Assembly (NCBI GenBank): GCA_009889515.1
Contig: WUQR01000139.1
Coordinates: 124,001-188,000 of the forward strand
Length of the DNA stretch: 64,000 nucleotides
Source: Nitrososphaerota archaeon
Lineage (GTDB): Archaea; Thermoproteota; Nitrososphaeria_A; Caldarchaeales; Calditenuaceae
Direction of reading: 5' to 3'
The notes below the pieces were generated by a model that was given only the letters and a program-made list of their open reading frames with translations, was not told where the DNA came from and did not search any database. The position numbers were made by a program, and so were the translations under genes. Shown piece after piece: positions 9,948-16,199 of this stretch (within the stretch, counting starts at the first letter, position 1; each line of letters starts with the position of its first letter).

Positions 9948-10244
9948 TGATGAAAATTAAGGTTGAGTGATTGGGCTTGGATATATTCAGCATTGCGTAC
10001 GTTGTGAGTGTATGAAACCTATGGCGGTGTTTATAGTGGGCTGATTAAAGCATTCTAAATCAGTAGGTGACGGTCAATTCTGAACATTCTCGTCAATTTC
10101 AGAGATATCTTTTCCAAAGCTTTCCCAACTCAATCTGCATGTATCTGAGTATAAGTTTGTTGTACGCTAGTTCTTGAGGAGATATGATGCTTAAAGTCTG
10201 AAGGCTGCGTAATAATTAATAATTGCGAATCAATGGCAATTCCA

Positions 10245-10961
10245 ATGGTTGAAGCTGTTTATTTCGCCGTTGCGTTCATAGGCTTGCTGCACGGTTTGGA
10301 TCCGGGGCATGGCTGGCCTCTCGCTCTTCTATATGCGGCCAATCCTCGTTCAAGGGGGCCGGCGAGCCGCCCTCTAAGGGCATTTGTTGGCTCTGTAGTG
10401 ATTTCATATTTCCACTTGATCTCCTCTTTGGCGGTGGTTGCGGCGTACATGGTTCTGAAGGCGGCTATAGACTTTTCCTTACCATACCTGAACTACGTCG
10501 CGGGAGCTGCTCTTCTCATCCTAGGTATCAAGTATTTGTTAGAGAGGCCGGGAGATAATTCCAAGAAGGCTCATGGGCATCTTCACGGTGATTTCGAAGG
10601 AGGTGTGCATGGGCATGAACACGAGCATCCCGGCGGCATAAGACATACGCACCCTCACAGATGTGGGAATAGAGTTTTGACTGGTCTCTGGGGGATAGCC
10701 GTCTCTGCTTTCTTCTTAGGGTTTGCCCATGAGGAGGAGTTCGCTCTCTTAGCCCTTGCCGTCGGCGGGGTAGACCCGCTGGCTCTTATGCTGATCTACA
10801 GCTTGGCTGTGACGGCGGGTTTGGTTGGCGTGACTATGGCCGCTGTCATGGTATATGGCAGGGTTGAAGAGAGGCTCAAGAGGTATGAAAGCCTCATACC
10901 CAAGCTGAGTGGTGTGATCCTTCTGATAATGGCTGCGAGTTTCCTAATCGGTCTGAGATGA
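10245..10961 (+). CDS. NicO/RcnA-like nickel/cobalt transporter
   Basis: Membrane protein, about 238 residues, six hydrophobic segments. The first carries the metal motif HGLDPGHG typical of NiCoT/NicO/RcnA proteins. A cytoplasmic-looking loop is rich in histidine (HGHLHGD, HGHEHEHPGG, HTHPH) and a later helix has GFAHEEEF. RcnA-type members export Ni/Co; other relatives import nickel. I choose the methionine at 10245 because the AT-rich box around 10210-10223 fits it; 10233 is the other possible start. The neighbours do not hint at a specific metal enzyme. Confidence 0.82.
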   Translation: MVEAVYFAVAFIGLLHGLDPGHGWPLALLYAANPRSRGPASRPLRAFVGSVVISYFHLISSLAVVAAYMVLKAAIDFSLPYLNYVAGAALLILGIKYLLERPGDNSKKAHGHLHGDFEGGVHGHEHEHPGGIRHTHPHRCGNRVLTGLWGIAVSAFFLGFAHEEEFALLALAVGGVDPLALMLIYSLAVTAGLVGVTMAAVMVYGRVEERLKRYESLIPKLSGVILLIMAASFLIGLR

Positions 10962-12942: not shown

Positions 12943-15240
12943 GTGCAGTCAGCGACCTACGTTGGTAAGCCCATCCCGCGAAAGGAGGATCTGAGGTTTT
13001 TAACCGGGAGGGGAAGATACATAGATGATATAAGTATCCCGCGAATGCTTTATGCGGCCTTTCTTAGGAGCCCATTCGCCCACGCGAGAATAACTAGTAT
13101 CGATGTGTCTGGTGCACTTCAAAATGGCGCGGTGGCCGCCTTCACAGGCGAGGAGCTTAACAAGATGTGTGGTGGTATACATGTGGATGTACCGCGGGGG
13201 CGGAGGGGTTTTGTGGTTAAACCTCTCGCGGAGGGAAAGGTTAGGTATGTTGGCGAGCCTGTTGCAGTTGTAGTGGCTAACGACCCCTACACGGCGCGGG
13301 ACGCTCTAGAATACATCAGCGTGGATTACGAGAGGCTTGAGCCGGTTGTAGACCCACTTGAAGCTTCTAGGCCTGGCGCGCCTGTCATACATGATGACTT
13401 CCCAGACAATGTCTGCTTCACAAGGAAGCGTGTCTATGGTGATGCCGAGGCGGCCTTCAGGGAGGCCGACAGGGTCGTCGATGTCCAGCTGAGAATACAG
13501 AGGCTTGTCCCCGCTGCGATGGAGTGTCGCGGAGTGGTGGCGGTTTTTGACGAGGGGGTCGGTTACCTGAGGATCTGGGCCACTAAGCAGTTCCCACACG
13601 ACTTTCGCAGCTGGACTGCAGAGGCCCTTGGAATACCTGAGTCTAAGATTCAGGTTATAGCACCAGACATAGGCGGGGCCTTTGGCTCGAAACTTGAGCA
13701 CTATCCTGAAGATGTTGTGATCCCTCTCTTGGCCAAACTTCTTGGGCGGCCTATAAAGTGGATTGAGACGCGTAGTGAGAACTTCCACACTACAACTCAT
13801 GGGCGGGGTACTGCTGCTTGGGTCGAGGCGGCTGTGAAGAGTGATGGCCGGCTTCTCGGGGTTAGGGCTAGAATCTTGACGGATCTCGGCGCTTATCCAT
13901 ACTTCTCTACGATACAGGTTCCTGAGGGGATTGTCGGAATGCTGCCGGGTTGCTATAAGCTGAAGGGCTTGGAGGCCGAGGTCACCGGTGTCTTCACCAA
14001 TAAAGTTCCAACCGCGGCGTATAGGGGCGCGGGTAGGCCAGAGGCCTCATACATAATTGAGCGGACTATGGATAGGATTGCGAGGGAGCTGGGAATCGAT
14101 CCTGCGGAGGTTAGGAGAAGGAATTTCATCAGGCCGGATGAGTTCCCCTACGAGACTATAACCGGTCACAAGTATGACTCTGGGAACTATGAGCAGGCTC
14201 TTAACAAGGCGCTCGAGATTGTGGGCTATGAGGAGCTTAGGCGAAAACAGTCCGAGCTGAGGGCGGTGGGCAAGCTGTTGGGAATAGGAATCTCAAGCTA
14301 CATCGAGGTATGTAACTTTGCTCCCACTCCTGCTATAGTGAGTGTGGAGAAGGATGGCAGGGTTAAAGTGATTTCTGGAACGCTGCCACATGGTCAGGGT
14401 GAGGAGACCGCCTTCGCACAGATAGCCGCTGACGCACTGGGCGTGGACATAAAGGATGTCGACGTAATATTTGGTGATACTTCTCTGATCGGATGGGGAC
14501 CTGGGACGGCCGGTAGCTGGACGCTGGCTTCTGGCGGTAACGCGGTCCTACAAGCCTCTATGAAGGTGAGAGAAAAGATACTGAGGCTTGCGGCTCATAT
14601 GCTGGAGGCCAGGCCGGAGGACTTAGAGCTTGTTGATGGGAAGGCTCGCGTGAAGGGTGTCCCAGAGAAGTCCGTGACGATCAAGGAGGTCGCCGCCCTA
14701 GCGTATGACCCTTCGGCACTGCCTGCGGGTATGGAACCCGGGCTGTCAGCGGAGGCGGGCTACAGTCCGCAGCTGACGTATCCGTTTGGGACGCATGTGG
14801 CGGTGGTCGAGATAGATACGGAGACGGGTAGGGTGGAGGTGAAGAGGCTAGTGCTTGTCGATGACTGTGGAAGGGTTGTTAACCCGCTTCTGGTGGAGGG
14901 GCAGGTGATTGGTGGAGCAGTCCAAGCACTAGCCCAGGCCCTCTACGAGGAGGCCTTCTACGACAGCGACGGAAACCTCGTCAACTCCAACTTCGGAGAC
15001 TACCTCATCCCCACCGCTGTGGAGATACCTGAAATCCTGACGGAGAGGACCGAGACACCTGCTCCTAACCCGTTAGGGGCTAAAGGTGTCGGGGAGGCCG
15101 CGACAATTGGCTTGACGCAGGCGGTGGTAAACGCTGTCGAGGATGCGCTGGCGCCACTCGGCGTCAGGGTAGTGGATACGCCGCTAACACCCTACCAGAT
15201 TTGGCGAATAATACGAGAAAAACCCGTAAAGCCGGCTTGA
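12943..15240 (+). CDS. Molybdenum hydroxylase large subunit (xanthine dehydrogenase/CoxL family, form II-like)
   Basis: 765 residues covering the N-terminal a/b-hammerhead (from VGKPIPRKEDLRFLTGRGRY) and the molybdopterin-binding domains. Motifs: GGAFGSKLEH, the AYRGAGRPE loop near residue 363, and the catalytic glutamate (about 718) in GAKGVGEAA. True form I CO dehydrogenases have AYxCSFR at that loop; AYRGAGR marks form II/aldehyde-oxidase-like enzymes, so CO oxidation should not be assumed. Normally it pairs with an FAD subunit and a 2Fe-2S subunit; neither is adjacent. The likely role is hydroxylation of an aldehyde or N-heterocycle. Confidence 0.9.
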   Translation: MQSATYVGKPIPRKEDLRFLTGRGRYIDDISIPRMLYAAFLRSPFAHARITSIDVSGALQNGAVAAFTGEELNKMCGGIHVDVPRGRRGFVVKPLAEGKVRYVGEPVAVVVANDPYTARDALEYISVDYERLEPVVDPLEASRPGAPVIHDDFPDNVCFTRKRVYGDAEAAFREADRVVDVQLRIQRLVPAAMECRGVVAVFDEGVGYLRIWATKQFPHDFRSWTAEALGIPESKIQVIAPDIGGAFGSKLEHYPEDVVIPLLAKLLGRPIKWIETRSENFHTTTHGRGTAAWVEAAVKSDGRLLGVRARILTDLGAYPYFSTIQVPEGIVGMLPGCYKLKGLEAEVTGVFTNKVPTAAYRGAGRPEASYIIERTMDRIARELGIDPAEVRRRNFIRPDEFPYETITGHKYDSGNYEQALNKALEIVGYEELRRKQSELRAVGKLLGIGISSYIEVCNFAPTPAIVSVEKDGRVKVISGTLPHGQGEETAFAQIAADALGVDIKDVDVIFGDTSLIGWGPGTAGSWTLASGGNAVLQASMKVREKILRLAAHMLEARPEDLELVDGKARVKGVPEKSVTIKEVAALAYDPSALPAGMEPGLSAEAGYSPQLTYPFGTHVAVVEIDTETGRVEVKRLVLVDDCGRVVNPLLVEGQVIGGAVQALAQALYEEAFYDSDGNLVNSNFGDYLIPTAVEIPEILTERTETPAPNPLGAKGVGEAATIGLTQAVVNAVEDALAPLGVRVVDTPLTPYQIWRIIREKPVKPA

Positions 15241-15281
15241 AGTAATAATTGCGTATTATTCTAAATAAGTTGATGCAAACG

Positions 15282-15289
15282 TTTATATA
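15282..15289 (+). promoter_or_regulatory. TATA-like box of a structured RNA gene
   Basis: TTTATATA, the strongest TATA match in the window. Transcription would begin about 26 bases on, near 15312, right at the 5' arm of the closing helix of the RNA. Confidence 0.7.
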
Positions 15290-15311
15290 GGAGACCCTAG
15301 TTTCCTATGCA

Positions 15312-15497
15312 GCGGGGCGCCCGGGACAGGGGAGATCCAAGAGGCGTCAGGATAGCCTGGCGTCTCGAGGAATCTCCAGTCTCGTGGACCCATCGGGAAA
15401 CCGTGGGCAAAGAGATTGGGGATGGTGCTCACGGTGTGCGTGGGGCCTAGGGGTCTAACACGCACGTCGCGCGCCCTCCCCGAAAGGCGCCCCACCT
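15312..15497 (+). ncRNA. Structured non-coding RNA, family unassigned
   Basis: About 185 bases, GC-rich, with no credible protein. The ends pair perfectly: GGGGCGCC (15314-15321) with GGCGCCCC (15486-15493). A second helix, GGGGAG (15329-15334) with CTCCCC (15476-15481), lies inside it. Internal hairpins: GAGGCGTCAGG/CCTGGCGTCTC at 15341-15366 with a four-base loop (GU pairs allowed), and GTGCGTG/CACGCAC at about 15436-15465. A smaller stem with a GAAA loop sits near 15390-15405. The run after the first hairpin, GAGGAATCTC (15367-15376), fits the RNase P CR-I pattern GAGGAANNUC, but I find no CR-IV or CR-V match, so RNase P is not established. The SRP RNA core motifs are also absent. Strand is set by the TATA box. 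Confidence 0.65.
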
Positions 15498-15500
15498 ATT

Positions 15501-16199
15501 TTACGGAGCCAACACGTGTCTGAGGACTTTCTCGTAATACTGTTCCGGCGAATATTCTATCATCTCGAGATCGTCGATGTTGATGACTATTATGGAGTGT
15601 ATTCTGCAGTTGCGCAGCTCGTCTATCTGGATGGGTGGTCTGCTGTAGTAGATGTCGCAGAGCCTCTTCAGCGACTCTACTTCTCCAGCCTCTCTAAGCC
15701 TCGGCGGCTTTAATAGGGGCTCCGGGATCTCTAGCACGTTGTAGCGGGGTGTTGCTAGGCTGAACTTGTCTGCATATTTGCTATATCGCGCAACCTTGCT
15801 AACCACGCGTGCCCGTAGATACCTCTGGGGGTCGAGGGCGGCCTCGGGCGGGGCGAAGCCAGTTTCTATCTCGATGATCTGGGTGCTACCTCCCCTCTCG
15901 CCAAAGACGTCGCAGACGAGCGCATCGCCGAGATACCTCTCCACGTCCACCTCGTATCCCAGCCTCGCCAAGTGGCCCGCACAGATAACCTCCATTACGG
16001 AATGGTTGATCTTAACAAGCCCTCTCTGATGCATGTCTATGAGCTTAGCCCCAATCTTGGAGAGCTGGTCCCTGAGAGACTGGCCCAGTACCTCTGCTAG
16101 CCTCTCCACTAGCGCGTTAATGTCCCTCGCAAAATCACTCTCAGAAGGCCTATCAGCCTGCTTGGCTACCTCCCGCTCACCCGGCTGGTCTCTGCTCAC
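15501..16199 (-). CDS. PD-(D/E)XK nuclease-like conserved hypothetical protein
   Basis: 232 residues, GTG start. The N-terminal 65 residues are helical and charged. The middle region has a layout like restriction-endonuclease-fold enzymes: GYEVDVE, then LVCDVFGE, then QIIEIETG (the D...ExE core), followed by lysines in SKVARYSKYADK. No family name can be given. It lies 116 bases downstream of pcna on the same strand, with its own AT-rich promoter-like sequence near 16232. A DNA repair or processing role is plausible but inferred only from fold-like motifs and neighbourhood. Confidence 0.6.
   Translation of the reverse strand: MSRDQPGEREVAKQADRPSESDFARDINALVERLAEVLGQSLRDQLSKIGAKLIDMHQRGLVKINHSVMEVICAGHLARLGYEVDVERYLGDALVCDVFGERGGSTQIIEIETGFAPPEAALDPQRYLRARVVSKVARYSKYADKFSLATPRYNVLEIPEPLLKPPRLREAGEVESLKRLCDIYYSRPPIQIDELRNCRIHSIIVINIDDLEMIEYSPEQYYEKVLRHVLAP

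Follow-up and report, generated by a model that had tools for sequence, protein, structure and literature searches.

What is the GC-rich element that lies, in the 64,000-nucleotide stretch of archaeal DNA analysed here (hereafter the window), between a molybdopterin-dependent dehydrogenase large-subunit gene (12943–15240, + strand) and a convergently oriented gene that encodes a 232-aa protein (about 15501–16199, - strand)? The window comes from the family Calditenuaceae, placed by NCBI taxonomy in Caldarchaeales, Nitrososphaerota. The first-pass annotation had read it as an unassigned structured RNA gene, resembling a stable RNA in layout and preceded by a strong TATA box, and had offered two options, a shortened RNase P RNA or a new RNA family. 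We consider it very probable that the element represents a new and genuine family of structured ncRNA in archaea. The analysis shows that it is conserved and structured, that its promoter keeps its position, that it occupies a single locus, that Rfam lacks it and that it co-occurs with the neighbouring protein. The features of the locus are as follows.

15275–15289, + strand: putative promoter, recognized from the sequence as an A-rich BRE-like stretch followed by the TATA box TTTATATA (15282–15289)
15309–15498, + strand: predicted RNA gene, with a predicted start at about 15309–15312 and a mature core at 15314–15493 (fold, covariation, covariance-model match)
15314–15321, + strand: 5' arm of P1, GGGGCGCC, paired with 15486–15493, GGCGCCCC (MFE; helix 1, two-sided changes in 8/10 pairs)
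15322–15328, + strand: internal loop A, CGGGACA, consensus [CA]GGRANA (kept in 23/25 homologues)
15329–15334, + strand: 5' arm of P1b, GGGGAG, paired with 15476–15481, CTCCCC (fold, covariation)
15336–15371, + strand: P2, with a 3-bp base, a 2x2 internal loop and an 11-bp hairpin (15341–15351/15356–15366) with loop ATAG (MFE, homologues)
15372–15423, + strand: P3, with a 12-bp stem, an internal loop and the hairpin CCCA-U-CGG GAAA CCG UGGG (helix 5, two-sided changes in 12/12 pairs)
15424–15475, + strand: P4, with a 5-bp base GGTGC/GCGCC, an internal loop and a long arm ending in GGGCC-TAGG-GGTCT (fold; helices 8–11)
15482–15485, + strand: internal loop B, GAAA, consensus GAA[AU] (kept across homologues)
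15497–15502, + strand: U-rich tract TATTTT directly 3' of P1, probably an archaeal terminator (function judged from the sequence)
about 15501–16199, - strand: gene convergent with the RNA; its conserved 232-aa product, the candidate partner, has a predicted fold resembling PD-(D/E)XK nucleases

The + strand of 15309–15498 folds with a minimum free energy of -114.7 kcal/mol, compared with -80.3 +/- 4.2 for 200 dinucleotide shuffles (z -8.1), and ranks first of 3,192 GC-corrected 190-base segments sampled from both strands of the window, while the - strand of the element folds much worse. The second strongest folding place of the window (10690–10930, + strand; z -5.4) is coding sequence of a membrane-transporter-like ORF (10233–10961), whose mRNA folds unusually well. 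In the predicted architecture, P1 closes the molecule and is followed by an internal loop, by P1b and by a four-way junction bearing P2, P3 and P4. The pairings proposed by the first-pass annotation are all present: the ends pair over 8 bp (15314–15321/15486–15493), the inner 6-bp helix is P1b (15329–15334/15476–15481), the 11-bp hairpin with a four-base loop spans 15341–15366, and the GTGCGTG/CACGCAC pairing lies inside an 11-bp helix of P4 (15432–15442/15459–15469). Nearly all copies keep the purine internal loop [CA]GGRANA//GAA[AU]. In the other four copies from the same genus the P2 loop is GAAA (three copies) or GCAA (one copy), and in most families outside the window's own the P2 apex is of the GGGAAGCC type. 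The P3 hairpin hardly differs between Caldarchaeum and the genus of the window. The internal loops of P1/P1b and P3 were inspected by eye for K-turns, and none is claimed because the second sheared G-A pair is missing.

The TATA box TTTATATA is present where the first-pass annotation placed it and is the only copy of this sequence on the window's + strand. In 24 homologues a TATA-like box stands at constant spacing to the RNA (none of 300 shuffles was as good), about 42 nt 5' of the GG of the internal loop and roughly 31 nt 5' of P1 across families. Runs of 3–6 T occur within 25 nt after P1 in most homologues, although these tracts are weaker in Nitrosocaldus, JZ1_63 and Calditenuis G006. The RNA of the window, about 185 bases long (175–235 nt in relatives), is single-copy in its genome, and only 7 bases separate P1 from the stop codon of the convergent gene. 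In the Calditenuis-like genomes (loci L141 and L142) the molybdopterin dehydrogenase gene runs towards the RNA and ends next to it in convergent orientation, while in the window the same gene lies upstream of the RNA on the same strand, which suggests local rearrangement around the RNA.

Homologues were found in at least 27 of the 44 genomes of the order Caldarchaeales ("Aigarchaeota") and, beyond this order, in Nitrosocaldus, in Nitrososphaeria archaeon JZ1_bin.63 (JZ1_63, a MAG) and in a genome of another class (G060). A DNA search of relatives returned four copies from the same genus and one, at 75% identity, from Caldarchaeum SKYG24 (G027), which belongs to a different family of the order. 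Further copies were reached by following the convergent gene through the order, and then by folding and motif scans; the same architecture was found beside this gene in Terraquivivens, Geocrenenecus, Wolframiiraptor and relatives, JZ1_bin.63 and Nitrosocaldus. When folded singly by MFE, relatives yield the same closed four-way junction. The gene context is not uniform: the Nitrosocaldus copy shares a strand with the protein gene and follows about 100 nt downstream of it, with its own TATA box, in the Calditenuis-like G006 and G011 the RNA adjoins a molybdopterin gene and not that of the 232-aa protein, and in G060 it sits between a phosphate-permease gene and another protein gene. One genome (G038) carries a second copy, with deletions in P2 and P3, beside a degenerate partner gene with internal stop codons (L143:1501-1710 (+); L044, G038:C26); this is a duplicated locus in decay or else a contaminant that stems from a related strain. 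Viral contigs carrying the 16-base P2 apex gave partial matches at E 0.009 or worse and were rejected as homologues.

The compensatory changes by which the first-pass annotation had proposed to check the element were found in three alignments of homologues. Because MAFFT, when run on all families together, placed P2 of the window's family wrongly, each group received its own model. In A9, 28 sequences fitted to the model and hence leaning towards it, two-sided changes occur in 73 of 83 pairs, including 18 of the 21 pairs of P2 helices 3 and 4, and the covariation score is 0.584, compared with 0.199 for shuffled and at most 0.154 for slid controls. A7 and A3 are plain MAFFT alignments, their structures nonetheless derived from the same sequences: A7 (17 sequences) has two-sided changes in 53/83 pairs vs. 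42 +/- 3 when shuffled and a covariation score of 0.393 vs. 0.206, and A3 (6 sequences) has them in 15/67 pairs vs. 4.5 +/- 1.7. In all three, no shuffle and no slid control reaches the number of two-sided changes observed.

Covariance-model searches point in the same direction. Model R2 contains only Geocrenenecus/Wolframiiraptor-type and Nitrosocaldus sequences and none from the window's family; searched against the window and the viral contigs, its sole full-length match is the window element (15310–15497, E 2.3e-9). Over 406 kb of loci it scores this element at 43.8 bits and also recovers the same-genus G001 and G003, Terraquivivens (E 1e-16 to 1e-20) and JZ1_63 (1.5e-13). R2 further found the unlinked copies of G006, G011 and G060 (1e-9 for the last). 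Large-sample genome searches with R2 scored 5–57 candidates per genome and missed true copies, including the window's own, so absence from them is weak evidence. Two R1 matches at E about 0.01 fell inside 16S rRNA genes and are false, and R1 matches at this level were therefore left uncounted.

Could the element belong to a family that is already known? In a cmscan of the element and homologous loci, the check named by the first-pass annotation, no family of Rfam 15 reaches its gathering score; the best sub-threshold match of the element is to an unrelated ribosomal-protein leader, at 22 bits vs. a gathering score of 47.4. Two points favour a truncated or diverged form of RNase P RNA or SRP RNA: the size and layout recall type-T RNase P RNA, and the run GAGGAATCTC at 15367 resembles CR-I, as which the first-pass annotation had taken it. 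Yet this run falls on the 3' side of P2 and its sequence is not kept (GAGGAGCCTC in G004, AAGAAGACCTTC in G001), neither CR-I nor a CR-V-like element was found in any of 25 homologues, and with the threshold relaxed to E<=10 the element still matched neither the RNase P nor the SRP families. Moreover, the same genome carries a complete RNaseP_arch gene (C139:308752-309050, 156 bits) and an Archaea_SRP gene (C139:1152810-1153124, 132 bits) and, since both score fully elsewhere in the genome, the element is neither of these RNAs. G027 and JZ1_63 likewise have RNase P or SRP RNA besides the new RNA, and we regard this reading, including the shortened RNase P RNA of the first-pass annotation, as already refuted. 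In G027, the RNase P RNA gene (L020:1369-1659 (-)) lies within about 750 bases of the new RNA, beyond the candidate partner gene. A C/D or H/ACA guide RNA for RNA modification would fit the many such small RNAs of archaea and the A-rich internal loops of P4, but is highly improbable: the C box RUGAUGA occurs in only 2/25 homologues and is thus not conserved, ACA stands within 4 nt of the closed 3' end in 3/25, no Rfam guide family matches, and the RNA is too large and too tightly closed. The first-pass annotation's view of the element as a stable structured RNA with a TATA box of its own is supported, and so is its other option, a new RNA family; we found no such RNA in the literature on Aigarchaeota or Nitrosocaldus.

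Coding and riboswitch explanations were rejected as well. The first-pass annotation had named a protein frame conserved over the interval as a reason to abandon the RNA; no frame stays open across the homologues, and a - strand frame that is open in the window meets stops in G004, G003 (JZ-3) and nearly all more distant relatives. Nor does the element lie consistently upstream of a same-strand gene, as a riboswitch or 5' leader would: in the window, 2.0 kb separate it from the nearest 3' ORF of >=100 aa on its strand, and in the other 14 homologues such an ORF is 0.3–3 kb away or missing. No downstream gene is regulated by position and, as the TATA-like box stands at a fixed distance, the element is best described as a stand-alone, probably trans-acting RNA.

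The candidate partner is the 232-aa protein, whose gene adjoins the RNA in the window's genus, Caldarchaeum SKYG24, Terraquivivens, Geocrenenecus, Wolframiiraptor, Nitrosocaldus and JZ1_63. It is conserved in many archaeal lineages, including Thaumarchaeota, Bathyarchaeota and Brockarchaeota, and we found no Pfam, NCBIfam or PADLOC family and no solved relative by sequence. Its AF2 model (pLDDT 90) has weak best PDB matches in Foldseek (none at E<=0.001), mostly to PD-(D/E)XK-type nucleases (CdiA-CT, Can2, HindIII, Hjc), and the invariant D97, E110, E112 and K135 fit this fold. Among the 44 Caldarchaeales genomes, 26 hold both RNA and protein and 14 neither, the RNA occurs alone in one (76% complete) and the protein without detected RNA in three (G009, G012 and G015). 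The association gives Fisher p 8e-8 by genome and, with genus counts of 7/0/1/6, p 0.002 by genus, tests that ignore shared ancestry. In G006, G011 (269 kb apart) and G060 both are present yet unlinked. Co-occurrence, even unlinked, thus suggests, but does not prove, a functional link between RNA and protein. The case is weakened by shared ancestry, by linkage, as co-loss could be one deletion where the two are adjacent, which they are in most genomes, and by the protein being widespread in Nitrosopumilales, Nitrososphaeraceae and Bathyarchaeota with no RNA detected; for this reason the protein does not generally need the RNA, unless the latter diverged beyond detection. A specific partnership of the RNA with this protein is accordingly held as a tentative possibility.

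Taken as a whole, the locus is probably best explained as a stand-alone stable RNA gene whose product would be a trans-acting RNP RNA, with the 232-aa protein as candidate partner; transcription, RNP assembly, partnership and biochemical role are what we infer from sequence. A single-copy gene would be transcribed from its own TATA promoter and end near the U-rich tract. P1 closes the molecule and is set apart from P1b by the conserved purine-rich loop, and P1b leads into a compact four-way junction with three arms. The RNA would most likely act in trans within a ribonucleoprotein, the conserved internal loop and the P2 apex being possible contact sites and the PD-(D/E)XK-like protein, which tracks the RNA even when far apart, the best candidate to touch them. 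A bolder version, which we find rather doubtful, is a hitherto undescribed archaeal ribonucleoprotein in which the four-way-junction RNA would be an obligate scaffold or activity switch of the PD-(D/E)XK-fold protein; the RNA would go back to the common ancestor of at least three archaeal classes, and RNA and protein would have been lost jointly on repeated occasions.

Two readings tie the RNA to its neighbour differently. The short gap to the stop codon in the window and the convergent arrangement in several families would suit a cis element of the protein gene, i.e., a 3'-UTR structure, an antisense RNA or a bidirectional terminator. This is very unlikely in view of the same-strand Nitrosocaldus copy past the gene, the unrelated loci of Calditenuis and G060, the promoter upstream of the RNA, and a four-armed fold far beyond what a terminator needs. 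An inhibitory RNA directed against the nuclease-like protein, on the pattern of type III toxin-antitoxin systems, would account for the linkage and co-occurrence of the two, but we judge it unlikely too, since the protein is widespread without detectable RNA, unlike a toxin in need of restraint, the RNA is one large unit with no tandem repeat, it is convergent and not ahead of the gene in one operon, and PADLOC gives no match. The trans-acting RNP RNA remains the preferred reading.

Archaea have, to our knowledge, few large structured RNAs that are deeply conserved yet belong to no known family, and most of the known ones proved to be central machines (RNase P, SRP). The RNA described here spans thermophilic Aigarchaeota and the ammonia oxidiser Nitrosocaldus, and has a closed architecture backed by covariation in dozens of pairs, as well as a concrete candidate for its protein partner; as Nitrosocaldus has a clear copy, cultures may allow tests of its expression, its structure and the partnership.

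Like archaeal RNase P RNA (RNaseP_arch RF00373) and its type-T variant, the new RNA appears stable, promoter-driven and closed by a terminal helix, but it has no CR elements and no match to that family; with archaeal SRP RNA (RF01857), which it likewise does not match, it shares a terminal helix and the high GC content of a thermophile RNA. The candidates of Weinberg et al. 2010 (PMC2864571), which include trans-acting ones from bacteria and archaea, were supported by the same kind of evidence, comparative covariation, and no Rfam family from that set matches, a comparison that covers families with an Rfam model. The raiA motif/ModT RNA of bacteria (PMC11706538) belongs to a different domain of life, and the new RNA has no Rfam match to it. 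The analogy is one of kind only: like it, the new RNA stands alone, is strongly structured, occupies a single locus, is conserved across a broad clade and probably acts in trans.
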